Shown here: positions 8,554 to 29,739 of the stretch, piece after piece | Numbering within the stretch: the stretch's first letter is position 1 | Layout of the letters: each line of letters opens with the position of its first letter | Origin: Hyphomicrobiales bacterium | GTDB taxonomy: Bacteria > Pseudomonadota > Alphaproteobacteria > Rhizobiales > Beijerinckiaceae | Assembly (NCBI GenBank): GCA_028290405.1 | Contig: JAQGJX010000131.1 | Coordinates: forward strand, 1 to 32,205 | Length of the DNA stretch: 32,205 bases | Direction of reading: 5' to 3' | Notes under the pieces: model-generated | What the model was told of the DNA's origin: nothing | Database searches by the model: none | The model's input: only the letters and a program-made list of their open reading frames with translations | Translations under genes and position numbers: made by a program

Positions 8554-9477
8554 TCAGCCCTGCAGGTCGGCGGCGCGCAGGAAGAACACTTCGCCGGCGC
8601 TCTCCTGCGTATCCAGCCAGAGCAGGGGCAGGTGCGGGAACTCCGCCTCGAGCAACTCGCGTCCGCGGCCGATCTCGCACAGCAGCGCGCCGGTCGGCGT
8701 GAGGTGGTCGGCCGCCTCGCGCAGGATGCGCCGCACGATGTCCAGCCCGTCCTCGCCCGAGCCCAGCGCCATGGCGGGCTCGTGGGCGTATTCGGGCGGC
8801 AGTTCGGCCATGGCCTGCGCGTCCACGTAAGGCGGATTGGTGACGATGAGGTCGTAGCGCCGGCCCTTCACGGGGGCGAACAGGTCGCCTTCCAGCAGAT
8901 GCAGGCGCTCGGCCGCGCCGCTCTCGGCGATGTTGCGGCGGGCGACGTCCGCCGCGTCGTGGGACAGCTCGACGGCGTCGATCTGCGCATAGGGGAACAC
9001 GCGGGCGGCCAGAATGGCGAGCGCGCCCGAGCCGGCGCACAGGTCCAGCACGCTCTCCACCGCGTCGGGATCGTCCACCAGCGCGCCGTCCTCCCCGGCG
9101 AACAGGCCCGAGAACAGAAGCTCGCCGATGAAGGAACGGGGCACGATCACCCGCTCGTCCACGTAGAACGGCACGCCCCTGATGTAGGCCTTGTTCAGCA
9201 GATAGGAGGCGGGCTTGCGGGTCTCGACGCGCGCCTCGATCAGGCCAGCCAGCCGCTCGCGCTCGCGCGGCAGCAGCTTCGCGTCAAGGAACGGGTCCAG
9301 CCGGTCGATGGGCAGGCGCAGGCCCTCCAGCACCATGAAGGCGGCTTCGTCCATGGCGTCCGTGGTGCCGTGTCCATACACGAGGCCCGCCTCCTCGAAG
9401 CGGCTCACCGCCCAGCGCAGGTAATCGCGCAAGGTCGTCAGCTCCCGCGTCACGTCCGCATCCCGCGCCATCGCCAT
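8554..9477 (-). CDS. prmB: 50S ribosomal protein L3 N5-glutamine methyltransferase PrmB
   Basis: This SAM-dependent enzyme methylates a glutamine of ribosomal protein L3. In 307 residues it shows an N-terminal helical domain (about 10-100), the SAM-binding motif VLDLCAGSGALAI (143-155), an acidic loop DAVELS (167-172) and the catalytic NPPYVD (214-219). The N-terminal domain and IVPRSFIGELL resemble PrmB rather than PrmC (HemK), although the two are paralogues. The ATG at 9477 has AAAGGA directly upstream; a second in-frame ATG two codons later is possible. It is divergent from the fumarylacetoacetate-hydrolase-family gene across 246 bp and leads the prmB/pentapeptide/membrane-protein run. 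Confidence 0.92.
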   Translation of the reverse strand: MAMARDADVTRELTTLRDYLRWAVSRFEEAGLVYGHGTTDAMDEAAFMVLEGLRLPIDRLDPFLDAKLLPRERERLAGLIEARVETRKPASYLLNKAYIRGVPFYVDERVIVPRSFIGELLFSGLFAGEDGALVDDPDAVESVLDLCAGSGALAILAARVFPYAQIDAVELSHDAADVARRNIAESGAAERLHLLEGDLFAPVKGRRYDLIVTNPPYVDAQAMAELPPEYAHEPAMALGSGEDGLDIVRRILREAADHLTPTGALLCEIGRGRELLEAEFPHLPLLWLDTQESAGEVFFLRAADLQG

Positions 9478-9723
9478 CGTTCCTTTTGCAAGCCGTCCGT
9501 GCTGCAGGGGCTTCGTTTAGGCGCTGGGGCCGGGCGGGGCAAGCGGCGGGGAAATGCGCAGCTCGGGCGTGGCGCGCCATTGTCTCTGCGGCGGGCGCGG
9601 GCTAGTAATCGAGCCCTTAAGAAAAGCGGGAGGAAGACGGCCCTGGACAGAATGCGCGGCCCTTGCTGCGCGCAGGCTCGCCGCTCCGCTCGAGATGTTT
9701 CGCCATAAAGGCAGGAGACGAGC

Positions 9724-10581
9724 ATGAGACTGTGCCGGTACGACGACGACAGGCTGGGCGTGGTGATCGGGGACCAGGTCCACGACGTGACCGCCGCGCA
9801 GGACGAGATCCGCAAGTCCGCCCGCTACGACATGATGGGCGACGCGGTGATCGCCGCCCTGCCGGAATGGCGCGCGCGCATCGACGCGATGGCCAAGGCC
9901 GCCCCCGGCAAGCCGATCGCGTCCGTAAAGCTGCTGCCCCCGGTGGCGCGCCCCTCCAAGGTCATGGCCGCGCCGACCAACTACAAGGCCCACATCGCCG
10001 AGATGGCGGCCCGCCAGGGCACCGCTCCGGAAGCCCACCGGGGCATCTCCGCCGCCGGCATCTTCCTCAAGGCCAATTCGTCCATCGTCGGCCAGTCTGG
10101 CGTCATCCCGCTGCGCTTTCCTGACCGGCTCAACGAGCACGAACTCGAGATCGTCGCGGTGATCGGCAAGACCGGCACGAACATCCGGTACGAGGACGCG
10201 CTGGACTATATCGCGGGCTATTGCATGGGCCTCGACATGACCGTGCGCGGCAAGGAAGACCGCAGCTTCCGCAAGTCCGTGGACGGCTATTCGCCCGTCG
10301 GTCCCTGGATGGTGACGGCCGACGAGATCGCCGATCCCGACAAGCTGCCCATCGAGCTCACCGTCAACGGCGTGACGAAGCAGAAGTCCAACACCGACAA
10401 CCTCATCTACGACATGCGCAAGCTGATCGAGTTCGCCTCGAGCTTCTACACGCTGCATCCCGGCGACTATTTCTTCACCGGCACGCCCGAGGGCGTCTCT
10501 CCCGTGAAGCCCGGCGACTGGGTGTCGGCGGCCTGCCCGGCCATCGGCGAGTTGAAGATCCAGGCCGTCGCGCAGGCCTGA
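9724..10581 (+). CDS. Fumarylacetoacetate hydrolase (FAH) family protein
   Basis: The 285-residue protein has the FAH fold used by 2-hydroxyhepta-2,4-dienedioate isomerases, acylpyruvases and 2-keto-4-pentenoate hydratases. It has an N-terminal cap (1-70) and the entry motif KVMAAPTNYKAH (79-90). The metal-binding glutamates are in NEHELEIVAVIGK (Glu140, Glu142), Asp171 is in MGLDMT, and FTGTPEGVSPVKPGD lies near the end. The ATG follows GGCAGGAG (9710-9717). A strong terminator follows at 10591. The neighbouring amidohydrolase and binding protein suggest a short catabolic pathway that splits or decarboxylates an aromatic ring-cleavage product. The precise reaction (hydrolase, hydratase or decarboxylase) cannot be told apart by these motifs. 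Confidence 0.92.
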   Translation: MRLCRYDDDRLGVVIGDQVHDVTAAQDEIRKSARYDMMGDAVIAALPEWRARIDAMAKAAPGKPIASVKLLPPVARPSKVMAAPTNYKAHIAEMAARQGTAPEAHRGISAAGIFLKANSSIVGQSGVIPLRFPDRLNEHELEIVAVIGKTGTNIRYEDALDYIAGYCMGLDMTVRGKEDRSFRKSVDGYSPVGPWMVTADEIADPDKLPIELTVNGVTKQKSNTDNLIYDMRKLIEFASSFYTLHPGDYFFTGTPEGVSPVKPGDWVSAACPAIGELKIQAVAQA

Positions 10582-16756: not shown

Positions 16757-17803
16757 TTACTTCAGCGCGGCGCGGGCGCGGGCGACTTCGGCTTCGGGCG
16801 TCGCGTAGATGGATTCGACCAGCTTCTGCACGTCGGCCCCCGAGACCGGGTCGACGCCGAGCTTCAGCTTTTCAGCCTCGGCCAGAAACTCCGGGTCCTT
16901 CATGGTCTCGTCGAACGCCTTGCGGTAGGCTTCCACGCGCTGCGGCGGCGTGCCCGGCGGCAGCACGTAGGGGCGGCCGAATTCGAGCTGGTTGAAGATC
17001 ACCCCCAGGGTTTTCCGGTCCGCCTCGGTCTTCACGTAGTTGAAGATCGTCGGCACGCCCATCCGGTTGAGCAGCGGGTCGCCGTCAGGCGAGGAGATCT
17101 GCGCGATGATGCGCACCTTCTTCTGTTCCAGCCACGGCTGGTAATTGCTGATGAAGCTCGTCCACTGGATGCCGCAGATGCCGCTCGTCTCGCCGCGCTC
17201 CATCGCCAGCGCGGCCTCGCGCGAGCCGGGATAGCCGGTGATCATCTTGAACTTCGTGCCCATCACGTTGTTCAGCACGGTCGGGTACTGGCGAATGGAC
17301 GACGTGACGCCGGACGTGCCGACGATCAGCTCCTTCGAGAACATGTCCTCGAACGTCTCGACGCCCGACGTGTGCCAGGCGACGCAGATGCTGGTCTCGC
17401 GATTGGCGCTGCCGATGTAAATGAACTTGCGCGGATCGAACAGCGTCGCGGAGGCGTCGCCGATCAGCGGCTCCATGATGGCGCCCATGAACAGCGCGCC
17501 GAACGTGCTGCCGTCCTTGGGCAGCTTGTTGTAGAGCAGGTTGGCGGCCGTCAGGCTGCCCGCGCCGTCGAGGTTGCGCGCCACGATGTTGGGTTTGCCC
17601 GGCAGGTGCTTGCCGATGTGCCGCGACAGCGCGGAGGCGTAGATCCCATAGCCGCCGCCGGGCGCCGAGCCTACGAGGAAGTTCACGTTCATGCCCGTGA
17701 AGAACTTCTCGTTGTCGTTCAGCGCTTGCGCGTGGACAGGGGCGGCGAGCAGCGCGGCGGCGCCCGCGGCCATGAGGGTCTCGATGAAGCGCGTCCTGGT
17801 CAT
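16757..17803 (-). CDS. Bug-family substrate-binding protein 2
   Basis: This 348-residue exported solute receptor has a signal peptide with Arg residues at the start (MTRTRFIETL) and a predicted cleavage after VHA (about residue 25). The mature protein contains NVNFLVGSAPGGGYG, RHIGKHLPGKPNIVARNLDGAG and a KMITGYPGS...AMERGE block shared with Bug protein 1. The start at 17803 has GGAGGGGAGA upstream; the longer frame to 17854 begins in an Arg-rich stretch and is rejected. It follows ynfA by 55 bp on the same strand and precedes ppsA by 177 bp. No TctA/TctB genes accompany it. The ligand is unknown, probably a small carboxylate. Confidence 0.9.
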   Translation of the reverse strand: MTRTRFIETLMAAGAAALLAAPVHAQALNDNEKFFTGMNVNFLVGSAPGGGYGIYASALSRHIGKHLPGKPNIVARNLDGAGSLTAANLLYNKLPKDGSTFGALFMGAIMEPLIGDASATLFDPRKFIYIGSANRETSICVAWHTSGVETFEDMFSKELIVGTSGVTSSIRQYPTVLNNVMGTKFKMITGYPGSREAALAMERGETSGICGIQWTSFISNYQPWLEQKKVRIIAQISSPDGDPLLNRMGVPTIFNYVKTEADRKTLGVIFNQLEFGRPYVLPPGTPPQRVEAYRKAFDETMKDPEFLAEAEKLKLGVDPVSGADVQKLVESIYATPEAEVARARAALK

Positions 17804-17858
17804 GCGTGTCTCCCCTCCATGGCGCCGTGTGCGGCGTCGTCGTCGTTGCAGCATACGC

Positions 17859-18185
17859 CTATGCGGCGCGCGGACCGAGCAGGATGAGGGCGGCGCCCGA
17901 AAGGCACGCGCCCGCTCCCAACAGATCCCAGCGGTCGGGAACCGTCCCTTCCACCAGCCATAGCCACGCCAGCGAAGCCGCGATGTAGACGCCCCCGTAG
18001 GCCGCGAAGGCGCGCCCGGCGGCGTCGGCCTCGACCCGCGTGAGCAGGTACGCGAAGGCCATCAGCGACAGCGCGCCCGGCGCCGCCCACCAGGCGGGCT
18101 TGCCCAGCCGCAGCCACGCCCAGAACGCGAAACACCCGGCGATCTCCGCCAGCGCCGCGCCCATGTAGAGCAGCGCCGTGCTCAC
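17859..18185 (-). CDS. ynfA: YnfA/UPF0060 family membrane protein
   Basis: The 108-residue protein has four hydrophobic helices and the family motifs [17 protein letters not shown] (7-23), [15 protein letters not shown] and a [14 protein letters not shown] ending, which match the YnfA family of small-multidrug-resistance-like proteins in motif and in length (108 in E. coli). The GTG at 18185 overlaps the isochorismatase-fold gene's TGA (GTGA), which argues for coupling and against the longer frame starting at 18239. Its function in this operon could be export of a product or of a toxic intermediate; this is inference. Confidence 0.92.
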
Positions 18186-18814
18186 GCGCCGTCCCAGACG
18201 CGGCTGATCTGCGCGACGTCGGCAACGGGGCTGGTCCATGAGCGCAGGAACGCGATGCTGCGCGCCTGCGCTTCGGCCGTGTAGGAGCCGGTGGCGTCTT
18301 CGGCGATGACCGAATAATAGCCCAGCGCGGCGGCGTGCCGGGCGGTGAATTCAATCCCGATGTCTGTGGCCACCCCGGCCAGCACAAGGGTCTTCACGCC
18401 CAGGGTTTTCAGACGGAGGTCGAGGGGCGTGTCCACGAACAGCGAGGGCTGGCTCTTGGGCAGCACGATGTGATGGGGCGCGGGCTGAAGGCCGTCGACG
18501 AATTCCGTCTCCTCCATGCCTTCCTGCATGGCGGGCGCGAGCTTGCCGGGATGATCCACCTTCTGCTTCTTCATCAGGAAGAGCTGGAACGGCCCGCACA
18601 TGAGATCGAGCGGCGGCAGAACATGGCGGCTCCAGATGACCGGCACGCCATTGCGTTCGGCGGCCGCCAGCAGGGCTTGGGCGGCGGCGATCACACGGTC
18701 CGCATGCAGGGCCTTGCCGGCGAGGCCCTTCTGGAAGTCCCACATCACCAGCGCGGCCTGCGAGGGCGCGAGGAAATCCTCCAGCTTCAAGGGGATGTCG
18801 CAACGCCCGCTCAT
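18182..18814 (-). CDS. Isochorismatase-fold hydrolase lacking the usual nucleophilic Cys
   Basis: The 210-residue protein has the fold of cysteine hydrolases such as nicotinamidase, N-carbamoylsarcosine amidohydrolase and ureidoacrylate hydrolase. Asp26 (VMWDFQKG) and Lys120 (VLPKSQPS) of the usual Asp-Lys-Cys triad are present. The nucleophile position in [15 protein letters not shown] (147-161) is Gly153, where GVATNICVE is usual. True isochorismatases (EntB, PhzD) also lack the Cys and use Asp and Lys for vinyl-ether hydrolysis, so this could be a non-amidase. A related possibility is an inactive or re-tasked member. The ATG overlaps the stop of the binding-protein gene (ATGA at 18811-18814), and its stop overlaps ynfA. 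Confidence 0.9.
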
Positions 18815-19725
18815 GCCCGCAACGCCTCCATGGCCCGCTCGTAATAGCTTTCGTCAATGAAGCTGGAGGGGTCCGCGAGCCGTGGGTGCGCGCCCTCCGG
18901 TTCCGCGCGGGTGGCCAGCACGTTGTCGAACCCCGCCCGGTCCAGCCGCGCGTCGATGGCGAAGCCGAACGCGGGCTGCAGCAACTGCGCGCGCGTGCCG
19001 GCCGCGACGTCGCGCGCCAGGTCGAGCCGCTCAGCCAGCATGTCTTCTGCTTGCGCCCCATGGGCGTCCTCGCGCAGCCAGCGCAACGCCTCCACGTAGG
19101 CGGCCATGTAGGCCTCCAGCGCAGGCGCGTTGGCCCTCGCCCATGCGGCCAGCACGAACGCGCCGCCCGCCTGATAGGGGCCGAGGCGATCCACCAGCCG
19201 TCCAAGGCTGCGCATGCCGCGCAATTGCGCCTCCGCCGAGAACGGCGGGTTCAGCACGGCTCCGGCGTTGTCCACGTCGGCGATCATGGCCTTGAGGCGC
19301 CGGGCGCCGTTGCCCACCGCCCGGAACGCATAATCCACCCCGTACGCGAGGCCCTCGCGCGCCAGCATCTTGCGCGCCAGCAGCGCATAGGCGGTGTCGG
19401 GCGAATCCACCGCCAGCGTGCGTCCGCGCAGGTCCTCGAATGTCTTGATGTGGGGCTGCACGATGAAGTCGTTCATGCCGCTCTCGCCGCCCATGACGAT
19501 GAGAACGTCCTGTCCGGCGGCGATCATCGACAGCGCGTTGTCCACCGCCGCCTGCACGATGTGGATGGCGCCGCCCGCAAGGCGCTCGCGTTGCAGCTTT
19601 GAGCTTTCCGTTTCGTCGATCGCGACGTCCAATCCGCGCCGGGCGAAAAACCCCTGCCGCTGCGCGACCCAGAGCGGCAGCGCCTTGGCGTTGGGGAACG
19701 TGCTGACGACGAGCGCCGGCATCAT
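18811..19725 (-). CDS. NMT1/THI5-like (NitT/TauT-type) binding protein without a signal peptide
   Basis: The 304-residue protein has the bilobed substrate-binding fold of aliphatic sulfonate, nitrate and thiamine-precursor receptors: STFPNAKALPLWVAQRQGFFARRGLDV (9-35), then the hinge block KTFEDLRGRTLAVDSPDTAYA. It begins MMPALVVSTF directly at the first beta-strand and has no hydrophobic leader. A longer frame to 19836 exists, but it is Arg/His-rich and overlaps the upstream gene. The start at 19725 overlaps that gene's stop (ATGA). Without a leader it should stay in the cytoplasm, where relatives such as THI5 act as enzymes; there are no ABC permease or ATPase genes beside it. Function is unknown. 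Confidence 0.85.
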   Translation of the reverse strand: MMPALVVSTFPNAKALPLWVAQRQGFFARRGLDVAIDETESSKLQRERLAGGAIHIVQAAVDNALSMIAAGQDVLIVMGGESGMNDFIVQPHIKTFEDLRGRTLAVDSPDTAYALLARKMLAREGLAYGVDYAFRAVGNGARRLKAMIADVDNAGAVLNPPFSAEAQLRGMRSLGRLVDRLGPYQAGGAFVLAAWARANAPALEAYMAAYVEALRWLREDAHGAQAEDMLAERLDLARDVAAGTRAQLLQPAFGFAIDARLDRAGFDNVLATRAEPEGAHPRLADPSSFIDESYYERAMEALRA

Positions 19726-20216
19726 CGCGGATCGCGAATGGGGGGGCCATTCTTGATGTTGAGCTGCTTCTGGCGCGCCGCGTCGAAGTCGTCGTCGCAC
19801 ATCAGGCCGGCGCGGCGGATGCCCTCGATGGCGCACAGGTCGTCCACCTCGTTCACGTCGCCCGTCACGCCGATGGCGCCGATGATCTCGCCGTGTTCGT
19901 CACGGATGAGCTGGCCGCCGGCCTCCAGGAAGATCGGCCCGTCGGCAAGCTCGCGCAGCGTGTCCATGAAGGGCGGCTTCTCGCGCGATTTCTGCAGCAC
20001 CATGCGCGAGGAGCGATGCAGCGCCAGCGCCGCGAACGCCTTTCCGCGCGCGATCTCGAAGCGCATCAGCGAGGCGCCGTCCTGCTTCAGGAACGCCTTC
20101 ACGCGTCCGCCCGCGTCCAGCACGATGGCGGCGAGCGCGTGGGCCTGCATTTCCTCCGCGCGCTCGAACGTCTTCAGGATGATGGCCAGCGACTGGTCCA
20201 TGCTGATGCCGCGCAT
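19722..20216 (-). CDS. GlcG/HbpS-like (DUF336) family protein
   Basis: The 164-residue protein has the GlcG/HbpS fold: an N-terminal helix (LAIILKTFERAEEMQAHAL), VLDAGGRVKAFLKQDGA (33-49) and a later GAIGVTGDVNEVDDLCAIEGI block. Family members include a heme-binding protein in Streptomyces and the GlcG protein of glycolate operons. They often stand next to catabolic enzymes and may bind small ligands or act on unstable intermediates. No signal peptide is present. The ATG at 20216 has GGAGACG upstream; an alternative Met five codons later is possible. It overlaps the binding-protein gene by 4 bp and follows the PPOX-fold gene by 39 bp. Confidence 0.9.
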   Translation of the reverse strand: MRGISMDQSLAIILKTFERAEEMQAHALAAIVLDAGGRVKAFLKQDGASLMRFEIARGKAFAALALHRSSRMVLQKSREKPPFMDTLRELADGPIFLEAGGQLIRDEHGEIIGAIGVTGDVNEVDDLCAIEGIRRAGLMCDDDFDAARQKQLNIKNGPPIRDPR

Positions 20217-20255: not shown

Positions 20256-20681
20256 TCAGCGCAGCGGCTTGCCGCGCACGTCTTCCGCCTTGGTGAGGCG
20301 GATGAGCACGCCGATGCCGGCGTCCGCGCCGTCATGGGTGGCTTCGCGCTCGTTGAGACGCGCAAAGATGGCGTCCCGGATGGCGCCGTCCTCGTGCAGC
20401 TCCGCCTCGCCGTGAAAGCGCAGGACGCCGGACTCCAGCCGTCCATCCCGCTGGGCCGCCATGTTGCTGTAGACGACCACCACGCGCGGGTTCGCGCGCA
20501 GGTTCACGAGCGCCGTCTTCTTCGCGCGCTCCCAGTAGGCGAGATGATCGTCGTCGAAGATCATCATGCTGCCCTTGGGGCTCACGTTGGGCCCGTCCGG
20601 GCCCTCGGTGGCGAGAAGGCACACGTAGCCCTCGTCCCAGGCGTTGGCGACGAGCTTCTTGACTGTGGCGCTGAAAGGCAT
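20256..20681 (-). CDS. Pyridoxamine 5'-phosphate oxidase-fold (FMN-binding split barrel) protein
   Basis: The 141-residue protein has the split-barrel flavin fold: LLATEGPDGPNVSPKG (22-37), IFDDDHLAYWERAKKTALVNLRANPRVVVVYSN (41-73) and a RFHGEAELHEDG strand pair. The PNVSPKG strand and the spacing before the ANPRVVV strand fit small FMN- or F420-type proteins rather than PdxH itself. It is cytoplasmic. AAGGGGAACGG precedes the ATG. It starts 10 bp after Bug protein 3 and precedes the GlcG-like gene by 39 bp, so it probably belongs to the same transcript and may serve as a small oxidoreductase in the pathway. The cofactor and substrate are not shown by sequence. Confidence 0.88.
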   Translation of the reverse strand: MPFSATVKKLVANAWDEGYVCLLATEGPDGPNVSPKGSMMIFDDDHLAYWERAKKTALVNLRANPRVVVVYSNMAAQRDGRLESGVLRFHGEAELHEDGAIRDAIFARLNEREATHDGADAGIGVLIRLTKAEDVRGKPLR

Positions 20682-20691: not shown

Positions 20692-21678
20692 TTATTCGAC
20701 GCGCAATTCGAGCGCTTCGACCATTTTCTTCCACTGCGCGTATTCCTTCGTCATGAAGGCCTCGGCGGCGGCCAGGTCGCCGCTCATGGGATCGAAGCCG
20801 ATGCTGCGCAGTTTGGCCTGTACGGCGGGCTCGCTGGCGATGGCGTCGATCTGCTTGTTGAGGTCGCCCACCAGGCCCTTGGGGGTGGCGGGCGGCGCGA
20901 AGAAGCCCACCCACGACAGCGACGTGAAGCCCGGATAGCCCGCTTCGGCGAACGTCGGCACGTCCTTCACCACGTCGTTGCGCTTGTCGGACGCGATGGC
21001 CAGCCCGCGGATGTCCCCGCTGGCGACCTGCGCGGCGAAGCCGGACAGCGACGAGATGACCATGGGGATGTGCCCGCCCAGCAGGGCGTTCGTGGCGTCC
21101 GGCCCACCCCGGAAGGGGATGTGCTTGGGGTTCGCCTTCAAGACGAACTTGAAGAAATACTCGCCCGCGATGTGCGAGCCGGTGCCGATGCCGGCGGTGC
21201 CGAACAGCACCTCCTGGTCCTTGGCGTTGGCGACGAACTCCGCGATGGTCTTCGCCTTGTCGTTCTTGTTGAGCGCGAACACTTCCGGCGTGGTGGCCAC
21301 GATGGAGATCGGCATGAGGGTCTGGGCCGAGAAGCCCTTGTTCCTGTACAGCGTCTCGTTGATCGGCAGGGCCGCCGTGGTGACCAGCAGCGTGTTGCCG
21401 TCCGGCGCGGCGGCGATGACCGCCTTGGCGGCGATGTTGGCGCCTGCGCCCGGGCGGTTCTCCACCACCACGTTGCGCCCGGTCTTCTCGCCGAGCCGCG
21501 CGCCGACGATGCGGGCGATGGAATCCGCCGACCCGCCGGCCGCAAAGCCGACAAGGAGCGTCAGCGGACCGGCCGCGGGAGCCTGCGCGTGCGCAAGGCC
21601 GGGAGCGGCCAGAAAACCCAGCGCCGCAAGGGCCCCATGCAGCGCGTTGCGGCGGTGCGTCGTGCGGACTCGTGTCAT
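20692..21678 (-). CDS. Bug-family substrate-binding protein 3
   Basis: The 328-residue exported receptor is of the classical Bug type. Its signal peptide (1-31, MTRVRTTHRR then a hydrophobic core, ending AHA) has an arginine-rich n-region without a clear twin-arginine consensus. The mature part begins PLTLLVGFAAGGSADSIAR and includes VVVENRPGAGANIAAKAV, FGTAGIGTGSH, IPFRGGPDATNALLGG and VGFFAPPATPKG. The ATG at 21678 is supported by AGGGGAACGCC; the long upstream frame is noise across dadA. It lies 95 bp downstream of dadA and 10 bp before the PPOX-fold gene. Nearby TctA/TctB genes are absent. The ligand may be the substrate of the downstream enzymes. Confidence 0.93.
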   Translation of the reverse strand: MTRVRTTHRRNALHGALAALGFLAAPGLAHAQAPAAGPLTLLVGFAAGGSADSIARIVGARLGEKTGRNVVVENRPGAGANIAAKAVIAAAPDGNTLLVTTAALPINETLYRNKGFSAQTLMPISIVATTPEVFALNKNDKAKTIAEFVANAKDQEVLFGTAGIGTGSHIAGEYFFKFVLKANPKHIPFRGGPDATNALLGGHIPMVISSLSGFAAQVASGDIRGLAIASDKRNDVVKDVPTFAEAGYPGFTSLSWVGFFAPPATPKGLVGDLNKQIDAIASEPAVQAKLRSIGFDPMSGDLAAAEAFMTKEYAQWKKMVEALELRVE

Positions 21679-21773: not shown

Positions 21774-22955
21774 TCAAGGCGCGGCCTGGGCCGTGCTTTC
21801 GATTTCGTCCGCGATCAGTTCCGCGGTCGCCGCCGACAGCGTCCAGCCCAGATGGCCATGGCCGGTGTTGAAGTACACCTTGGGGTTCCTGGAGCGCCGC
21901 ACCACGGGCAGCATGCTGGGCGTCATCGGCCGCAGGCCCGCCCATGGCTCCACATGCTCCGTGCTCATGGAAGGAAAATTGCGCCGCACCCAGTTCACCA
22001 GCGGCTGAACCCGCGCGTGCGGGATGTCGTAGTCGATTCCCGCCAGTTCCGCCGTGCCGGCGACGCGAAAACGCGATCCCAGCTTGCACGAGACGATCTT
22101 GGCCTCGTCGTCCAGCAGGCTCACCTGCGGGATCGTGTCGGGATCGGCCTCGATGGTGATGCTGTAGCCCTTCACGGGATAGATGTTGAGCGGATCGCCC
22201 GCCTGCCGCGACAGCGCGGCGCTCTCCACGCCCGCGCAGATCGCCACCGCGTCGTGCTCGCGCGTCAGCGCCGCAAGGTCCGGGGCCTCCGCCTCGTAAT
22301 GGAAGGACACGCCGTATTTGGACGCCAGCACGTCCGCCAGGCCGACGCAGAACTTGTGGATGTCGCCGGTGGCGTCCTCTGGGGTGTGGATGCCGCCGAT
22401 CACGCCGTCGGCCTCAAGGCGCGGCTCGATGGCCTTCACGCCCGCAGGGTCCAGCACCGTGCGGCCGACGCCGGTCTGCTTGTAGATGGACGCGTTCGCG
22501 CGCAGCGCCGCCTTGAAATAGAACTCGTCCTTGTAGACGTGCAGAATGCCCTTCCGGGTCAGGTCGAACGCGATCCCTTCCTCTTCGGCGATCTGGAAAT
22601 AAAGCTCGCGCGAGCGCAGCCCCAGGCGGATCGTCTCGATGGTGTGGCGCTCGTAGGTTCCGTTGATCGTGTTGAGCAGGAACTCCGCGATCCACTTGTA
22701 TTTCGCCAGCGAAGGGGAGGGGTGGATGAGCAGCGGCGCGTCCTTGCGCAGCATCCACTTCATGCCTTTCACGACGTTCGGCCAGGTGTTCCACACCTCG
22801 CTGTTGCTGACCGAGAACTGTCCGCCGTTGGCGTAGGACGTCAGCATGCCCGCATAGCGCCGCCGCTCGTAGACGCTCACCGCATGGCCGCGCCTCGCCA
22901 GCGCGTAGGCCGTGGTCACCCCGGTGATTCCCGCGCCAATGACCGCGATGCGCAT
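21774..22955 (-). CDS. dadA: D-amino acid dehydrogenase (DadA-like FAD oxidoreductase)
   Basis: The 393-residue protein is a FAD-dependent, membrane-associated enzyme that oxidises D-amino acids to 2-oxo acids and ammonia and passes electrons to the respiratory chain. It opens with the FAD-binding motif MRIAVIGAGITG (1-12) and has SYANGGQFS and KGMKWMLRKDAPL segments typical of DadA. It ends with WAGLRPMTPSMLPVV and a second FAD-contact block, NTGHGHLGWT. It is some 40 residues shorter than E. coli DadA (432). The ATG at 22955 begins the conserved motif and the preceding frame to 23084 is noise; AAAGGGA lies upstream. It is divergent from the PrpF-like gene. No alanine racemase gene is beside it, so the natural substrate may be another D-amino acid. 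Confidence 0.9.
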   Translation of the reverse strand: MRIAVIGAGITGVTTAYALARRGHAVSVYERRRYAGMLTSYANGGQFSVSNSEVWNTWPNVVKGMKWMLRKDAPLLIHPSPSLAKYKWIAEFLLNTINGTYERHTIETIRLGLRSRELYFQIAEEEGIAFDLTRKGILHVYKDEFYFKAALRANASIYKQTGVGRTVLDPAGVKAIEPRLEADGVIGGIHTPEDATGDIHKFCVGLADVLASKYGVSFHYEAEAPDLAALTREHDAVAICAGVESAALSRQAGDPLNIYPVKGYSITIEADPDTIPQVSLLDDEAKIVSCKLGSRFRVAGTAELAGIDYDIPHARVQPLVNWVRRNFPSMSTEHVEPWAGLRPMTPSMLPVVRRSRNPKVYFNTGHGHLGWTLSAATAELIADEIESTAQAAP

Positions 22956-23185
22956 GGATGTCGTGTCCCTTTCCGGAGCGAACGGCGCCGGACCGTCGGC
23001 GGCCTGTCGGCGTGCGTCGGACCGGTCCTCGAAAGATAGTGTCGCGCACCGGAAAGCGACAGGGCGGCTCAAGGCCGAGACCAAGCCGTCCAGGGAAAAA
23101 CAACTTGGGGCGATCAGGCGCCGCGCCGCCTATTGAACCGGAACGAGCATCAAATCCGCTATTTTTTGCATTTTCCGCATAGCCG

Positions 23186-23202
23186 ATCATCAGGTAAATG
23201 AT
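23186..23202. promoter_or_regulatory. ATCAT-N7-ATGAT dyad in the divergent control region
   Basis: In the 242-bp gap between dadA (-) and the PrpF-like gene (+), a lower-GC patch (about 23140-23202) contains this interrupted dyad, the shape bound by many LysR-type regulators. The right arm covers the first possible ATG of the PrpF-like gene, so either translation starts later or the site overlaps the coding region. A TTGAAC at 23133 could be a -35 box, but no good -10 box is at the right spacing. Confidence 0.3.
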
Positions 23203-24337
23203 AGGCATGAGCCACATTGATCCTGATCTTGCATCAACAGCGATGCGCGACGCGCCCCGTCCCCCCGCCCGCGGCCTTCGCCGCGTCCCCTGCGTGCTGA
23301 TGCGCGGCGGCACCTCCCGGGGCCCGTTCTTCCTGGAGAGCGATCTCCCGGCGGGCGAGGCGGCCAGGGACGCGTTCCTGCTGAACGTCATGGGCTCCCC
23401 CCATCCGCTCCAGGTGGACGGCATCGGCGGCGCGAATTCGCTCACCAGCAAGGTCGCCATCGTGTCCCGGTCGTCGCGGCCGGACGCGGACGTGGACTAT
23501 CTGTTCGCCCAGGTCTCCGTGGAGCAGCCGCTCGTCGACACAAGCCCCAATTGCGGCAACATGCTCTCCGCCGTGGGGCCGTTCGCGCTGGAGATGGGCC
23601 TCGTCCCCGCGCAGGACGGCGAGACCACCGTGCGCATCTTCAACCGCAACACGTCGAGCCTCGTCGAGGCGGTCATCCAGACGCCCGGCGGCGCGGTGGC
23701 GTATGACGGCGACACGGCGATCGACGGCGTCGCCGGCGCCGCCGCCCCCATCGGCCTCAGTTTCGGCGACGCCGCCGGTGGCAAGACGGGCGCGCTGTTT
23801 CCCAGCGGCGAGCGCCGCGAGGAGATCCACGGCGTCGGCGTGACGCTGATCGACTACGCCATGCCGATGATGCTGCTGGCGGCTTCCGACGTCGGCCTGA
23901 ACGGCGACGAGACGCCCGCGCAGATCGACGCCGACCGCGACCTCTACGTGCGCCTGGAAGCCATGCGCATGGAGGCCGGGCGCCGCATGGGCCTCGGGGA
24001 CGTCACCGGCCGGGTGATCCCCAAGATCGGCCTGCTGTCCGCGCCCCGCAGGGGCGGCACGATCACCTCGCGCTATCTGGTGCCGGACTCCTGCCACCGC
24101 GCCCATTCGGCCACGGGCGCGCTGTGCGTCGCCGCCGCCTCGCGCCTTGAGGGCACGGTCGCCTTCGCGCTCGCCGCGCAGGCCGAGGGTCCGGTGGTCG
24201 TCGAGCATCCCAGCGGCGCCATCCCCATCGCCCTCACGGCTCATGCCGAGGGCGTCAGCCGCGCGGCCTTCGTGCGCACGGCCCGTCGCATCTTCGAAGG
24301 CAATCTCCTCGTTCCCGCGGCGCTTTACGACACGTGA
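23198..24337 (+). CDS. PrpF / 4-oxalomesaconate tautomerase-like isomerase
   Basis: The 379-residue protein has the two-lobed diaminopimelate-epimerase fold of PrpF (2-methylaconitate isomerase) and GalD (4-oxalomesaconate tautomerase of gallate breakdown). Motifs are VPCVLMRGGTSRGPFF (30-45), DGIGGANSLTSKVAIV (74-89) and the catalytic-type Cys119 in SPNCGNML. The C-terminal part has HRAHSATGALC. Neither a PrpC/AcnD pair nor gallate genes are in the window, so the sequence alone does not decide which isomerase it is. Start choice is uncertain: ATGs at 23198, 23207 and 23243 are in frame, none has a strong ribosome site, and conserved sequence begins only near residue 29. It precedes a Bug gene by 41 bp, so the two probably form an operon for uptake and use of one tricarboxylate-like compound. 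Confidence 0.9.
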   Translation: MIGMSHIDPDLASTAMRDAPRPPARGLRRVPCVLMRGGTSRGPFFLESDLPAGEAARDAFLLNVMGSPHPLQVDGIGGANSLTSKVAIVSRSSRPDADVDYLFAQVSVEQPLVDTSPNCGNMLSAVGPFALEMGLVPAQDGETTVRIFNRNTSSLVEAVIQTPGGAVAYDGDTAIDGVAGAAAPIGLSFGDAAGGKTGALFPSGERREEIHGVGVTLIDYAMPMMLLAASDVGLNGDETPAQIDADRDLYVRLEAMRMEAGRRMGLGDVTGRVIPKIGLLSAPRRGGTITSRYLVPDSCHRAHSATGALCVAAASRLEGTVAFALAAQAEGPVVVEHPSGAIPIALTAHAEGVSRAAFVRTARRIFEGNLLVPAALYDT

Positions 24338-24378
24338 TCCGTTCGCCGCGTCCAAACCCGAAAAGAGAGGGAAGAAGC

Positions 24379-25362
24379 ATGTCCATCCGAGCCGCCGTGG
24401 CGACCTTTCTCGCATCCATCTCCTGCGCGGCCCTTCTGGGCGCCGCGCCCCTCGCGGCGCAGGAGTTTCCCTCCCGGCCCCTGAAGCTGATCGTGCCCTA
24501 CGCGGCCGGCGGCGGCACCGACGCCATCGCGCGCCTCGTGGCGCAGGCGGTGGGCGAGCGGCTCGGCCAGACCATGGTGGTGGAGAACAACGGCACGGCG
24601 GGCGGCAACGTCGCCTCGCAGATCGCCGCGTCCTCGCCCCCTGACGGCTACACCGTGCTGATGGCCAACCAGGGCCCGATGGTGGTGAACCCGCACCTGT
24701 TCAAGAACATGAAGGTCGATCCGCTGGAAGCGTTCGACCCCGTCACGCTCATCACCTCCGCGCCGCTGGCGCTGGTGGTGCCCGCCAAGTCGCCCATCAA
24801 GGACGTGAAGGAGTTCATGTCCACAGCCAAGGCGAACCCGGGCAAGTTCAGCTACGGCAGCGCCGGCAACGGCTCGGCCAGCCATCTGGCCGTGGTGCTG
24901 CTGGGCCAGCTTGGCGGCATACAGACCACGCACGTGCCCTATCGCGGCGCAGGCCCGGCGTTGAACGATCTCGTCAGCGGGCAGACGGACTTCATGATCA
25001 CCACCATGCCCTCGGTCGCAGGCTTGCTGGAAGGCGGCAGCGTGCGCGCGCTCGCCCTCAGCACGGCCACGCGCTCGGCCAAGTACCCGGACGTGCCCAC
25101 GCTCGCCGAAAGCGGCGCGCCCGGCTACGAGACCGGAGCCTGGTACGGCTTCGTGGTCCCCAAGGGCACGCCCGCGCCCGTCATCGAACGCCTGCGCAAG
25201 GCCACCATCGAGGCGATCAACACCGACGTCGTCAAGGGCCGCTTCGCCAACGAGGGCGCGGCCCCCATCGGCTCCACGCCCGAGGATTTCCGCAAGATGA
25301 TGGAAACCGAGTCCAAGCGCTGGGCGGACGTCGTGAAGGCGGCGAACATCACGCTGAACTGA
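24379..25362 (+). CDS. Bug-family substrate-binding protein 4
   Basis: The 327-residue exported receptor has a signal peptide (1-27, ending PLAA before QEFPSRP). The classical Bug sequence follows: LKLIVPYAAGGGTDAIARL, MVVENNGTAGGNVASQ, YGSAGNGSASHLA, VPYRGAGPALNDLVSGQ and WYGFVVPKGTPAPVIERL. The ATG at 24379 follows GAGAGGGAAG; the longer frame from 24334 is rejected. It is 41 bp after the PrpF-like gene, so it likely brings in the substrate or precursor of that isomerase. A strong terminator follows at 25379, closing this two-gene operon. Confidence 0.95.
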   Translation: MSIRAAVATFLASISCAALLGAAPLAAQEFPSRPLKLIVPYAAGGGTDAIARLVAQAVGERLGQTMVVENNGTAGGNVASQIAASSPPDGYTVLMANQGPMVVNPHLFKNMKVDPLEAFDPVTLITSAPLALVVPAKSPIKDVKEFMSTAKANPGKFSYGSAGNGSASHLAVVLLGQLGGIQTTHVPYRGAGPALNDLVSGQTDFMITTMPSVAGLLEGGSVRALALSTATRSAKYPDVPTLAESGAPGYETGAWYGFVVPKGTPAPVIERLRKATIEAINTDVVKGRFANEGAAPIGSTPEDFRKMMETESKRWADVVKAANITLN

Positions 25363-25378
25363 TCGTGGGGTGAACCAA

Positions 25379-25404
25379 GGGCCGGATTGTCTCCGGCCCA
25401 TTTT
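25379..25404 (+). terminator. Rho-independent terminator after Bug protein 4
   Basis: Perfect 8-bp arms (25379-25386 with 25392-25399) enclose a 5-base loop and are followed by ATTTTC. It lies 16 bp after the stop codon and separates the PrpF-like/Bug operon from the esterase gene. Confidence 0.85.
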
Positions 25405-25447
25405 CATAACCGCATTGAAGAAACGCTCATTTGGGGGGGAATTTTAT

Positions 25448-26581
25448 ATGGCGTTGAAGCCCGTTTCCATGCTCGCCGCCGGGGCGTTCGCCCTCGTCCA
25501 TGCGCTTGCAGCCCATGCGGCGGAGGGGATTGCGACAAGCGCCGCGCAGCGCTCGTTCTTCTTCGCGGGAGGCGCTTACACGGGCGAGCCCGGCAAGGAA
25601 ATCATGCGTGGGCAGATGTACGTGGAATATCTCGCCCCCGCCAAGATCACCCAGCCCTATCCGCTCGTGCTCATTCACGGCGCCGCGCAAACAGCGACCA
25701 ACTGGATGATGACCCCGGATGGGCGCAAGGGCTGGGCGGAGTATTTTCTGGAGCAGGGTTATGGGGTCTACATGGTGGACCAGCCAGCGCGAGGCCGCTC
25801 GGCCTGGCACCCCAACGTTGACGGAGCGTTGCGCATGTACACGGCTCCGCAACTGGAGCGGCTGTTCACGGCGCCCGAAGCCTTCAACCTGTGGCCGCAG
25901 GCGAAAAAGCATACGCAATGGCCTGGCGCGGGCGACAAGAAGGGCCGCATGGGCGACCCTGTCTTCGACGCATTCTACGCCACGCAGGTGCAATCGCTCG
26001 CCGGCGATGGGGAAACTCAGGACCGCATGCAGGCGGCGGGCGCTGCGCTGCTGGACCGCATCGGCCCCGCCATACTCCTTACGCACTCGCAGTCCGGCCT
26101 CTTCGGCTGGGTCATCGCGGAAGCGCGGCCCAATCTGGTCAAGGGCATCATCGCCGTGGAGCCCAGCGGGCCTCCGTTTGAAAACGCCGTGACAGGCACG
26201 ACGAAAGCGCGCGCATGGGGAGTGACGGACATTCCCATGACCTATGATCCGCCCGTTTCAGCCGCCGCCGACCTGAAGACGCAGAAACAGGACAAAGCCG
26301 ACGGACCAGATCTTGTCGCTTGCACGCTGCAGGCGGAGCCTGCGCGCAAGCTGACGAACCTCGCCTCCATCCCCACGCTGGTCGTCGCCAGCGAGGCCTC
26401 CTATCACGCCGTGTACGACCATTGCACCGCCCGGTTTCTCCAGCAGGCGGGCGTTCCGGCCGAGTTCCTGCAACTTGCCGACGCGGGCATTCGCGGCAAC
26501 GGCCACATGGTGATGCTGGAGCTCAACAATCTCGAAATCGCCGCGCAACTTGCGAAATGGGCGCAGGCGAACGTCAGGTAG
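25448..26581 (+). CDS. Exported alpha/beta hydrolase, esterase-713-like
   Basis: The 377-residue periplasmic hydrolase has a signal peptide (1-25, ending AHAA). It shows PLVLIHGAAQTATNW (72-86, oxyanion-hole HG), DGRKGWAEYFLEQGYGVYMVDQPARGRS, the nucleophile Ser214 in LTHSQSGLFG (211-220), Glu238 in IAVEPSGPP and His353 in RGNGHMVM. The 24-residue gap between Ser and Glu equals that of Ser206 and Glu230 in Alcaligenes esterase 713, as I recall it, so Glu rather than Asp is probably the acid of the triad. The ATG at 25448 follows a GGGGGGA track. Codon use looks less GC-rich than in its neighbours. The LysR gene follows by 37 bp. The substrate is unknown, though esters or lactones are likely. 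Confidence 0.92.
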   Translation: MALKPVSMLAAGAFALVHALAAHAAEGIATSAAQRSFFFAGGAYTGEPGKEIMRGQMYVEYLAPAKITQPYPLVLIHGAAQTATNWMMTPDGRKGWAEYFLEQGYGVYMVDQPARGRSAWHPNVDGALRMYTAPQLERLFTAPEAFNLWPQAKKHTQWPGAGDKKGRMGDPVFDAFYATQVQSLAGDGETQDRMQAAGAALLDRIGPAILLTHSQSGLFGWVIAEARPNLVKGIIAVEPSGPPFENAVTGTTKARAWGVTDIPMTYDPPVSAAADLKTQKQDKADGPDLVACTLQAEPARKLTNLASIPTLVVASEASYHAVYDHCTARFLQQAGVPAEFLQLADAGIRGNGHMVMLELNNLEIAAQLAKWAQANVR

Positions 26582-26598
26582 CTGTCTGCGAATTTAGT

Positions 26599-26624
26599 GC
26601 GCATGGTATCATTCCGCCATGCGC
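26599..26624. promoter_or_regulatory. 8-bp inverted repeat covering the LysR start codon
   Basis: GCGCATGG (26599-26606) and CCATGCGC (26617-26624) are perfect complements with 10 bases between them. The right arm includes the LysR ATG (26619-26621). As RNA it can form a hairpin that hides the start codon; as DNA it could be an autoregulatory site. No ribosome site is visible just upstream. Confidence 0.5.
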
Positions 26625-27515
26625 ATCAATTTCGAACTCCTGGACCTGCGCGCCTTTCTGGCGGTCATCGATCTGGGCGGCTTCCACAAGGCCGCCGACA
26701 ACCTTGGAATGTCGCAGCCAGCGCTGTCGCGGCGCATTCAGGGGCTGGAGGCGTCCCTGGGGGCGCCGCTGTTCGAGCGCTCGACCCGGCGCGTGTCGCT
26801 CACCGCCGTCGGCCGCGAGTTGGAGCCGCTGGTGCGGCGCATGATCGACGAGTTCGAGACCTCGCTGCTGTCCCTTGGCGACGTCGGACGCGCCCAGCAG
26901 GGGCAGGTGACCATCGCGTGCATTCCCACGGCGGCGTTCTATTTCCTGCCCCGGGTCGTGCAGGCGTACAACGCCATCTATCCGAAAATCCGCTTCCGCA
27001 TCGTGGACGAAGGGGCCAGCGAATGCCTCGCCAGCGTGGCGCGCGGGGAGGTGGAGTTCGGCCTGAACCTCATGGGCGCGTCGGACCCCGACCTCACCTT
27101 CACGCCGCTGGCGGACGATCCGTTCGTGCTGGCGTGCCGGCGCGATCACCCTCTGGCGGCCGCCGACGATCTCTCGTGGTCGGACCTGGCGGGCATGCCG
27201 CTCATCGGCGTCAGCCGGGCCAGCGGCAATCGCGTGCTGCTCGACGCGGCGCTCTCCAAGAGCGACATCCAGCTGCAATGGCTGTGCGAGGTGAACCATC
27301 TGTCCACGTCGCTGGGGCTGGTGGAGGCGGGGCTGGGCGCCTCCGTCCTGCCGCGCCTTGCGACGCCGCAGGAGGATCATCCCATCATCGTCACCAAGCG
27401 CATCAAGGACCCGATCGTGACGCGCACCATCGGCATCGTGGAGCGCCGGCGTTCGCGGCTTTCGCCCGCCGCGCAGCGCTTTCGCGACATGCTGGCGGCA
27501 AGCTGGAGCGACTGA
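26619..27515 (+). CDS. LysR-family transcriptional regulator
   Basis: This 298-residue regulator has the N-terminal winged helix-turn-helix (about 5-65: LLDLRAFLAVIDLGGFHKAADNLGMSQPALSRRIQGLEASLGAPLFERSTRRVSLT), here given as one domain with its key block SQPALSRRI at 32-40. A two-lobed ligand-binding domain follows (about 90-298, with VTIACIPTAAFYFLPRVV). The start at 26619 matches the family N-terminus. It lies downstream of the esterase gene on the same strand and faces the Bug protein 5 gene tail to tail across 6 bp. LysR proteins typically control a neighbouring gene or their own promoter, so the esterase, the PrpF-like operon or the Bug operon are candidates. The effector is unknown. 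Confidence 0.94.
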   Translation: MRINFELLDLRAFLAVIDLGGFHKAADNLGMSQPALSRRIQGLEASLGAPLFERSTRRVSLTAVGRELEPLVRRMIDEFETSLLSLGDVGRAQQGQVTIACIPTAAFYFLPRVVQAYNAIYPKIRFRIVDEGASECLASVARGEVEFGLNLMGASDPDLTFTPLADDPFVLACRRDHPLAAADDLSWSDLAGMPLIGVSRASGNRVLLDAALSKSDIQLQWLCEVNHLSTSLGLVEAGLGASVLPRLATPQEDHPIIVTKRIKDPIVTRTIGIVERRRSRLSPAAQRFRDMLAASWSD

Positions 27516-27521
27516 GCGCGC

Positions 27522-28505
27522 TTACTGCGTGCCCTCGATGCCCGCCTTGCGCACAACGTCCGTCCAGCGCGCAATCTCCGTCTTCACGAAAGCCTGCAGC
27601 TCGGGCAGGGACGGGGAGGGCACGGGCAGCATGCCGGCCTTTTCGATCTGCGCCTGGGTCGCAGGGTCGCTCATGACGGCGGCCAGATCGCGGTGCAGCT
27701 TTTCGACGATGGCGGGCGGCGTCCCGGCGGGGGCGGCGACCATCTGCCATGAGGCGACGTCGAAGCCCGGCAGCGTGTCGTTGATCGGCGGCACGTCCGG
27801 CAGAGAGGCGAGCCGCGCGGCGGTGGAGACGCCGAGCGCCCGCACCTGGCCGCCCTGGATCTGCCCGATGGCGGGGCCAAGGTCCACGAACATCAGCGGC
27901 ACATGGCCGGCGATCACGTCGTTGAGCGCGGGCGCGCTGCCCTTGTAGGCGACGGGCTGCATGTTGAAACCCGCCATGCTCTTGAGCAGTTCGGCGAAGA
28001 GGTGATGCGGCACGCCCGGGCCCGCCGTCGCGTAGAACAGCGGATTGGGCTGCGCCTTCGCGTAGGCGATGAGTTCGGCCACCGACTTGACGGGCAGCGA
28101 CGGGTTCACCACCAGCACGAAGGGCGTGCGGGCGGGAATGGCGAGCGGAATGAAATCGGCCGCGGGATTGTAGGGCAGGCTCTTGTAGAGGCTGACGTTG
28201 ACCGCCATCGTGGAGCTTGGCGCAATCATCAGCGTATAGCCGTCCGCAGGCGCCTTGGCGGTCGCCACCGCGCCCACCACGCCGCCGGCTCCCACGCGGT
28301 TCTCCACCACGAAGCCCCGGCCCCATTTGGGCTCGAGATGCTGGCTGAGCGTGCGCGCGAGAATGTCGCCTGCGCCCCCGGCCGTAAACGGCACGATCAT
28401 CGTGATGGGTTTGGCCGGAAAGTCCTGCGCCAGGCCCGCAGCCGGCGCCAGCGCCCCCGCCATGAAGCCAGCCAGCAACGCCCGTTTCGACAAGAGCCAC
28501 GCCAT
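27522..28505 (-). CDS. Bug-family substrate-binding protein 5
   Basis: The 327-residue exported receptor has a signal peptide (1-26, MAWLLSKRALLAGFMAG then an Ala-rich stretch, ending GLAQ). The classical Bug blocks are ITMIVPFTAGGAGDILART, VVENRVGAGGVVGAVA, YATAGPGVPHHLFAELL and VAYKGSAPALNDVIAGH. The ATG at 28505 has GGGAGGGA upstream; the frame to 28622 overlaps the acyltransferase gene and is rejected. It begins 17 bp after the acyltransferase stop on the same strand, so the two may share a transcript although their roles look unrelated. The stop lies 6 bp from that of the LysR gene. No TctA/TctB genes are near. Confidence 0.95.
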   Translation of the reverse strand: MAWLLSKRALLAGFMAGALAPAAGLAQDFPAKPITMIVPFTAGGAGDILARTLSQHLEPKWGRGFVVENRVGAGGVVGAVATAKAPADGYTLMIAPSSTMAVNVSLYKSLPYNPAADFIPLAIPARTPFVLVVNPSLPVKSVAELIAYAKAQPNPLFYATAGPGVPHHLFAELLKSMAGFNMQPVAYKGSAPALNDVIAGHVPLMFVDLGPAIGQIQGGQVRALGVSTAARLASLPDVPPINDTLPGFDVASWQMVAAPAGTPPAIVEKLHRDLAAVMSDPATQAQIEKAGMLPVPSPSLPELQAFVKTEIARWTDVVRKAGIEGTQ

Positions 28506-28521
28506 CGAATCCCTCCCGCTT

Positions 28522-29739
28522 TCAAGTTGCGCGCAGAGTGTCCGTATTCGCCCCGCCGGGCAAGTGGCGGCCCTGCGCCAGCAAGGCGCGGGAGATGTCC
28601 CGGGAGGGCTTTTCGAGCGCATGGAACACGATCGCCGCGAAGGCGAGCGCCAGGGCGAGAATGAACGCGTTCGCCAGCGCGGCTTCGGGAAGGGAAAGCT
28701 GCGGGGCGAAAACGCCCTCGAGCGCGGCTTCCGGCCGCCTCAGGCCAAGGCGCAGCGCCTGCGTGACGCCCCAGACGACCAGCGTGTGGGACATGTAGAG
28801 CGAGTACGAGATGGAGCCGAGCCACGCGAGCGCGCGCCCGTTGAGCGCCCCGCGCGTCCAGCCCGGCCCGCAGCTCACCGCGCAGACCAGCAGCGCGGCC
28901 GCGAGCGGCAGCATCAGCGGATCATAGGCCGTCCCGCCCTTGAAGTGCAGGAAGGCCAGCATGGCGGCGAACGCCGCAGGCAGGCCCCACCCCGGCGCCG
29001 CAAGAGGCGCGCGCTCCAGGCCCGCCGCCACAAGGCAGCCCAGAAAGAACCCCGCCATGCAGCGCAGCAGCAGCGCGTAATCGGCGCCCGCGCCCGTGGC
29101 CAGCAGGGCGACGCTGGCGCACAGGATCGCCGCATGCGCGGCGGGCGCGGCGCGGCGCGCCGTCAGGGCGAGCGCCGCGAACGCCAGGTAGACGTAGAAC
29201 TCCGTGCTGATCGACCATGCGGCGGCGTTGAACGTCAGCTCGGCGCCTGTCGGCCCGATGGCTTGCAGCAACAACGCATGCTGGGCGAACGCCGTCCATG
29301 TGTTGCCGGAGCCTGCGAGCGGCCCGGGGCCCTCCAGCCCCAGTCGCGCAGCCGCGAACCGCTTGGCCAGCTCCACGCACGCCCACGCCAGCAGGAACGC
29401 CGCATGGACCGGATAGAGCCGTCCGAACCGCAGGGCCTGGAAGCGCGCCAGCGCCGCGAGGCTGTCGATGCGCCCCCCGTAGGCCCTGTGCATCACGAAG
29501 CCCGAGAGGACGAAGAACACGTCCACCATCAGGTAGCTGTTGCGGACGATGGGGAGCCCCCAGAGCTGCGCGTTCCATCCCGGCAGGTGGTGCAGGACCA
29601 CCAGAAGCGCCGCGAGGCCCCGGATGCTTTCCAGCTCCATCAGCATGGGCCGGACGCCCGCCGCGGCGGGCGCCGCCGCGAGAGACGCGGGGCGGGATGC
29701 GGCGGGGTCGCACGCGGGCGCGCAGGTTTGGAGTTGCAT
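28522..29739 (-). CDS. Acyltransferase-3 (OafA/YrhL-like) membrane protein
   Basis: This 405-residue multi-pass inner-membrane acyltransferase typically adds acetyl or other acyl groups to surface sugars or lipids. The family start LESIRGLAALLVVLHHL (36-52) carries the conserved His pair. It is followed by DVFFVLSGFVM (73-83), an FGRLYPVH segment (106-112) and ISYSLYMSHTLVVWG near the end, with about ten hydrophobic helices. An ATG at 29739 has a GGAG 7 bases upstream, although the first 30 residues are Ala/Pro-rich and a start at the MLMEL methionine is possible. It lies 101 bp after yihA on the same strand. The acceptor cannot be told from sequence. Confidence 0.92.
   Translation of the reverse strand: MQLQTCAPACDPAASRPASLAAAPAAAGVRPMLMELESIRGLAALLVVLHHLPGWNAQLWGLPIVRNSYLMVDVFFVLSGFVMHRAYGGRIDSLAALARFQALRFGRLYPVHAAFLLAWACVELAKRFAAARLGLEGPGPLAGSGNTWTAFAQHALLLQAIGPTGAELTFNAAAWSISTEFYVYLAFAALALTARRAAPAAHAAILCASVALLATGAGADYALLLRCMAGFFLGCLVAAGLERAPLAAPGWGLPAAFAAMLAFLHFKGGTAYDPLMLPLAAALLVCAVSCGPGWTRGALNGRALAWLGSISYSLYMSHTLVVWGVTQALRLGLRRPEAALEGVFAPQLSLPEAALANAFILALALAFAAIVFHALEKPSRDISRALLAQGRHLPGGANTDTLRAT

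Follow-up and report, generated by a model that had tools for sequence, protein, structure and literature searches.

A conserved GlcG, NMT1 and Bug2 gene core with a leaderless solute-binding-fold protein in Beijerinckiaceae and their relatives, possibly a module for a small carboxylate

Four genes of a Hyphomicrobiales bacterium (Beijerinckiaceae) are joined, stop to start, by overlaps of 4 base pairs (bp), which raises the question of whether they form one functional unit and what such a unit would handle. They lie on contig JAQGJX010000131.1 of assembly GCA_028290405.1, the 32,205 nucleotides of which constitute the window analysed here. A preliminary description, made from the sequence alone, had read the four genes, together with two genes upstream, as a candidate unit for the uptake, conversion and export of a small nitrogen or carboxylate compound. 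Comparison with related genomes shows that a different set, the genes for the GlcG-like protein, the leaderless NMT1-like protein and a downstream receptor, Bug2, is conserved, and that the four-gene unit as framed is not. Our tentative reading, to which we give almost an even chance, is that the locus represents one version of a module, specific to the lineage, for taking up and catabolising a small carboxylate, probably an aromatic ring cleavage product, with the NMT1 protein as its cytoplasmic receptor. The genes concerned are:

19722-20216, minus strand: GlcG/HbpS-like (DUF336) protein of 164 amino acids (PF03928, 80.6 bits); core gene.
18811-19725, minus strand: leaderless NMT1/THI5-like solute-binding-fold protein of 304 amino acids (PF09084/PF13379, 42.1/40.6 bits); core gene.
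18182-18814, minus strand: isochorismatase-fold protein without the catalytic Cys (D26, K120, Gly153), YecD-like (PF00857, 134.4 bits); accessory gene.
17859-18185, minus strand: YnfA (UPF0060) small membrane protein with a GTG start (PF02694, 108 bits; NF002586, 132.2 bits).
16757-17809, minus strand: Bug2, a divergent TctC-type receptor with a signal-peptide-like N-terminus (judged by eye); core gene.

The shared bases, ATGA at 19722-19725, ATGA at 18811-18814 and GTGA at 18182-18185, agree to the base with the preliminary description. It was also right about the gaps upstream, 39 bp to a PPOX-fold gene (20256-20681) and 10 bp from there to the stop of Bug1 (20692), and its family labels are borne out by PF03928, PF09084/PF13379, PF00857 and PF02694, for all of which the window proteins exceed the Pfam gathering scores. 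An Rfam scan of the window at gathering scores and a tRNA search returned no riboswitch or other RNA element and no tRNA.

Scanning named genome contigs with a GlcG alignment yielded 27 loci, whose record titles place them in Beijerinckiaceae, Roseiarcaceae, Xanthobacteraceae (L112 only) and unplaced Rhizobiales or Hyphomicrobiales. Twenty-six were scored, L112 being left out as it offers a GlcG fragment and one flank only; the counts exclude L049-L085, which overlap the named loci L086-L111. The contigs of L086, L091, L093, L097 and L108 end early, so that counts of downstream genes are lower bounds. An NMT1 gene accompanies GlcG in 24 of the 26 loci, always on the same strand, at a distance of at most 1.2 kb in 23 and of 6.2 kb in L105. 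Bug2 orthologs were found in 20/26; the contigs of L086, L091, L093 and L097 end before the place of Bug2, and L092 and L095 offer no more than a 38% homolog. In L095 (contig L058:1204-2901), a gene resembling thiamine diphosphate-dependent decarboxylases lies between NMT1 and a divergent Bug, and L092 has a gap of similar size. The linkage was also seen from the other side, in a reverse view from the NMT1 and isochorismatase proteins that covered 61 genomes: NMT1 homologs of at least 54% identity have GlcG nearby in all 14 other genomes with a full-length match, and two further genomes with split NMT1 matches show GlcG proximity on their pieces too. By contrast, YnfA is present in 0/26 loci and all four genes are adjacent in 0/26.

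Around this core, other genes occur in subsets of the loci. The isochorismatase-fold gene is found in 7/26, PPOX in 8/26 and LysR in 7/26, and GlcG, NMT1 and the isochorismatase gene occur together in six (L086, L087, L088, L093, L099 and L100). Bug1, at an identity of at least 60%, is present in 9/26 loci and accompanies PPOX wherever the latter occurs (8/8); the suggestion that Bug1 and PPOX belong to the unit thus holds for part of the loci. In 11/26 loci a PEP-mutase/isocitrate-lyase-type gene separates GlcG from the module gene that follows, and PrpF is present in the identical 11 (L086, L088, L091, L093, L094, L096-L100 and L111), a co-occurrence that likely reflects a two-step pathway. 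In L066, L072 and L073, which present a different setting, the isochorismatase gene is likewise paired with PrpF, while in L069-L071 none of the searched module genes lies beside it.

The AlphaFold2 model of the NMT1-like protein (predicted local distance difference test score, pLDDT, 94.7) has a binding-protein fold. With this model, Foldseek ranks 3qsl best and the CmpC regulatory domain (9uai, 9uak) third and fourth, and the first 20 hits include SsuA, Thi5 and DszB. The window protein lacks the signal peptide of an exported ATP-binding cassette (ABC) binding protein, as the preliminary description had noted, there being no hydrophobic stretch in frame above its start. Leaders were called by hydropathy and by eye rather than with a dedicated predictor, on 24 readable N-termini that include the window and exclude L108. 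The leader is absent in 20 of these and doubtful in L087, because the upstream frame there overlaps GlcG, and a clear signal peptide is carried by the orthologs of L103, L106 and L107. In 9 of the 24 N-termini a stop closes the upstream frame at most 24 codons before the PNAK motif. Four polar residues, K14, R46, N85 and N159, set this lineage apart: they show no variation across 22 core and 7 sister leaderless sequences, and 6/6 signal-bearing relatives lack them.

The sister group (L063-L067, L076 and L077), which looks leaderless as well, is 39-44% identical to the window NMT1 protein, and its NMT1 gene stands beside an ABC permease gene in 6/7 loci. In L063-L067 and L077 the leaderless NMT1 is paired with both an ABC permease and an ATPase, sets that resemble a CmpC/NrtC arrangement split apart. 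Six of the seven sister loci also hold an NMT1 paralog, c11, whose copy in L066 starts with a signal-peptide-like stretch, and PrpD, FAH, VOC and PEP-mutase genes occur as well where the stretch is long enough; L063-L067, though not the early-ending L077, combine the second NMT1 paralog with CapA-like, two PrpD-like and FAH genes. The NMT1 tree has long branches (L072, L166 and L110) and weak support for the forks around the window protein. On this tree, and given the leaderless sister group, the signal peptide of L103, L106 and L107 was apparently regained, once or more, and the order in which leaderlessness came first is tentative.

More distant NMT1 homologs are found on plasmids, where the best full-length matches are about 34% identical or less. 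Those of Rhizobium AB2/73 and Achromobacter pA81 carry a signal peptide and have VOC and FAH genes nearby, a setting that fits aromatic catabolism, but they are too distant for the substrate to be transferred and were rejected as a guide. A Caballeronia plasmid (L162, about 8800-9750) encodes an NMT1 relative that is 45% identical and decayed, and no module gene among those searched was found near it.

Would such a protein bind its ligand or convert it? The foremost competing explanation makes the NMT1-fold protein an enzyme, a decarboxylase, desulfinase, dehydratase or Thi5-like synthase, acting between uptake and the PrpF/lyase steps; we regard this as unlikely, though a serious contender. 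It draws on the Foldseek ranks of Thi5 and DszB, which are enzymes built on the binding-protein fold, on the polar residues peculiar to the leaderless lineage and on the missing leader. However, catalysis by Thi5 and DszB uses His and Cys residues, and the titles of their structures name H66G and C27S mutants, whereas no His or Cys is conserved in at least 95% of the 22 core NMT1 sequences. Moreover, the three orthologs with an export signal have the same four residues, and the sister group lies mostly beside importer genes. Dihydroxyphthalate decarboxylase was considered as an identity of the NMT1 protein and set aside, as the available portion of PMC6362003 gives no family link. On the receptor side, a more specific proposal, which we likewise regard as unlikely, is that the leaderless NMT1 proteins are stand-alone cytoplasmic receptors derived from exported binding proteins, with a new carboxylate pocket (K14, R46, N85 and N159), that would gate or report on tripartite or ABC uptake, have a DUF336 partner in one branch and in a few cases have later returned to the periplasm with a regained signal peptide.

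A more doubtful alternative holds that the genes are neighbours by descent only, through the kinship of the species and with no common pathway, the overlaps being a product of genome compaction. By their record titles all 26 loci come from one order-level group, and within each of two groups of loci (L050, L052, L068 and L078; L057 and L061) the flanking genes are shared. Overlaps of 4 bp are, moreover, common: a start allowing one is available in 5/18 co-directional gene pairs called in the window and 58/322 in relatives, as counted with a crude custom gene caller that missed YnfA and Bug1. One such overlap is nothing unusual and, by itself, weak evidence. What descent alone accommodates poorly is that the remaining annotated loci differ in their flanks, that the PEP-mutase and PrpF genes come and go jointly and that the order of the core varies while its set stays. 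Three layouts were seen. Layout A consists of Bug1-PPOX, a reversed PrpF (with LysR in some) and GlcG-PEP-mutase-NMT1-isochorismatase-Bug2, with gaps in several loci; layout B has a reversed LysR followed by GlcG-NMT1-Bug2; and layout C is GlcG-Bug2-NMT1, the core set thus being retained in two orders. The window holds the layout A set minus the PEP-mutase gene and minus PrpF/LysR between PPOX and GlcG, with YnfA between the isochorismatase gene and Bug2. L087 resembles it in having neither PEP-mutase nor PrpF/LysR there, but is without PPOX too. GlcG and NMT1 also adjoin each other directly in L087 and in layout B, and the PEP-mutase gene may have been either lost in the window or gained in the others.

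The overlaps themselves are commoner inside the module than in the background. Among module junctions on the same strand and less than 400 bp apart in the 26 loci, 28/70 allow a 4-bp overlap start, although these loci are related and the counts are not independent events. In 15/23 loci the start of NMT1 shares 4 bp with the stop before it, and it does so behind three different upstream genes, which again argues against descent alone: PEP-mutase in 9/9, GlcG in 2/5 (L090 and L095) and Bug2 in 4/9. The junction of NMT1 with the isochorismatase gene shows a 4-bp overlap in 3/6 loci. Recurrence in relatives of the ATGA links that the window has at NMT1 supports coupled translation, and lends some weight to the earlier statement that the proteins are probably made together.

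It is very improbable that all four genes, YnfA included, act together in uptake, conversion and export as first proposed. In favour of such a unit, the GTGA overlap links YnfA to the isochorismatase gene and a Shigella YnfA is described as an efflux transporter in the available text of PMC9295541. Against it, YnfA is missing from every module locus, is present away from the module in 16/60 other genomes searched, and Bug2 directly follows the isochorismatase gene in 5/7 other loci bearing the latter, the other two contigs ending there. The protein itself is a YnfA by the equivalog model (NF002586, 132.2 bits against a cut-off of 114). From its distribution, it is probably an insertion private to the source genome, a hitchhiker outside the conserved module, and the export arm of the earlier proposal is left unsupported. 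A perfect 4-bp overlap can attach a stray gene to a conserved set.

The GlcG protein belongs to the DUF336/HbpS-GlcG family (80.6 bits against a PF03928 cut-off of 25), the one Pfam family that also holds EfgA, HbpS, the C-terminal domain of PduO and E. coli GlcG. It differs from these in forming a distinct subfamily. The protein is uncommonly well preserved: 17 aligned orthologs are 74-89% identical, all start with Met-Arg and have 164 gap-free columns. With the alignment model, the window scores 330 bits and the other genomes of a class sample of 385 reach 143 bits at most. The nearest solved relative is EfgA (6bws), a weak match of 36.8 bits. EfgA holds formaldehyde by K57, S114 and D121, according to the text available of PMC8153426; with the register set by hand, these align with K59, T118 and D125 of the window protein, which thus retains the three ligand residues with Thr for Ser, and all three are invariant in 18/18 sequences. 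A D-amino-acid dehydrogenase-type gene lies near GlcG in the window (21774-23084) and on plasmids of Shinella and Mesorhizobium (L163 and L164), the Mesorhizobium plasmid having malate synthase G between the two. No such gene occurs in any of the 26 module loci, and a link to the module was dropped.

The isochorismatase fold of the accessory protein is supported by its PF00857 match, by an AlphaFold2 model (pLDDT 82.8) and by a Foldseek match to RutB (E 5.6e-14). Of the Asp-Lys-Cys triad, Asp and Lys are retained, and Gly153 replaces the Cys nucleophile in 14/14 aligned sequences, the window included, in agreement with the earlier label "Cys-less". A PDB profile search returns E. coli YecD (1j2r) first, with a Gly aligned at the Cys position, whereas a search with the single sequence returns RutB first and YecD fourth; the match to NF008517/PRK11440, at 73.9 bits, is under the cut-off of 195. 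YecD, which was deposited as a hypothetical protein, shares both the fold and this Gly, so that loss of the Cys is an already known state and a usual cysteine-type amidase is unlikely. The fold is also that of the isochorismatases EntB, VibB and PhzD, but isochorismate would be an unlikely substrate in such a setting.

Two further genes, upstream of GlcG, complete the window's share of layout A:

20256-20681, minus strand: PPOX-fold (PNPOx_N) protein that pairs with Bug1 (PF01243, 47.5 bits).
20692-21663, minus strand: Bug1, a TctC receptor (PF03401, 176.6 bits); its 5' end is not fixed, 21663 being the start of the translated stretch, where there is no start codon.

Our preferred reading, a small-carboxylate module, joins these receptors to the enzymes of relatives. 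Uptake and conversion of a small carboxylate, as in part of the earlier proposal, fits both the receptors and the PEP-mutase and PrpF enzymes of relatives, while a nitrogen compound found no support in the analyses run. The module PrpF of L050, whose contig is shared with L088 and which was the sole one scanned, scores 513 bits against a 4-oxalomesaconate tautomerase model with a cut-off of 440, which points to ring-cleavage acids. A 57% relative of the module PrpF, encoded in the window on the opposite strand (23198-24337), scores 487 bits. The stretch that begins there (23198-28622) holds PrpF, two TctC receptors, an alpha/beta hydrolase and a LysR regulator. The protocatechuate 4,5-cleavage/gallate-type pathway involves 4-oxalomesaconate tautomerase and tripartite receptors. 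The module resembles such catabolism in its PrpF above the tautomerase cut-off, its Bug receptors, LysR and an acid lyase, and differs in that no ring-cleavage dioxygenase, hydratase or known aldolase was found among the part of the module neighbours scanned.

The gene linkage, the missing leader, the lost Cys and the residues peculiar to the leaderless lineage are observed; the ligand class, the sensor role of NMT1 and the transporter partner are inferred. The parts would work together as follows. Bug2, joined by Bug1 where present, would capture the acid in the periplasm and pass it to a tripartite permease whose genes lie elsewhere in the genome; for TctA, the source genome gives eight matches, two of them partial. 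The leaderless NMT1 protein would bind the same or a derived acid in the cytoplasm and report its level, by analogy with the CmpC domain. GlcG, also cytoplasmic, might bind a reactive intermediate, as EfgA does formaldehyde. The isochorismatase-fold protein may process the acid, with a PrpF tautomerase and a PEP-mutase/isocitrate-lyase-type lyase added in fuller versions. The CmpC/NrtC C-terminal domain of bicarbonate and nitrate ABC transporters, which is thought to be a solute-binding regulatory domain (PMC11349869, in the text available), is a cytoplasmic solute-binding fold and a structural neighbour of the window NMT1 protein. It is, however, fused to the ATPase, whereas the NMT1 protein is separate, and the core module showed no ABC subunits, although the sister group has ABC genes nearby.

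Several observations weigh against this module reading. The core module yielded no component of a membrane transporter, and Bug2, with 16 bits against TctC, misses the cut-off of 27, which three related paralogs pass at 31.5-43.5 bits. The window is without the PEP-mutase gene and its PrpF is separate and divergent, so that its pathway may be incomplete. In L066, the PrpF beside the isochorismatase gene reaches 437.5 bits, under the tautomerase cut-off of 440, though its start may be clipped. L094 and L098 keep the module without NMT1, and L112 shows none of the module genes in the 9 kb visible beside a GlcG relative of 60% identity. The signal peptides of L103, L106 and L107 mean that a cytoplasmic role is not universal, and NMT1 residues S8, N12, Q58, E81 and N139 are invariant in the core and differ in the sister group, so that the two groups may bind different ligands. 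The EfgA ligand residues are reported, in the text available, to be largely conserved across DUF336 (PMC8153426), which makes them weak evidence for an aldehyde ligand of GlcG.

The families are known; their combination is new as far as the searched literature goes, no description of it having been found in the available text of the open-licence papers covered. Few members of DUF336 are characterised; in two dozen genomes the combination links this family to one receptor and to one binding-fold protein of the cytoplasm. The leaderless and signal-bearing NMT1 proteins, in turn, make up a natural series for studying the route from periplasmic binding protein to intracellular sensor or enzyme.

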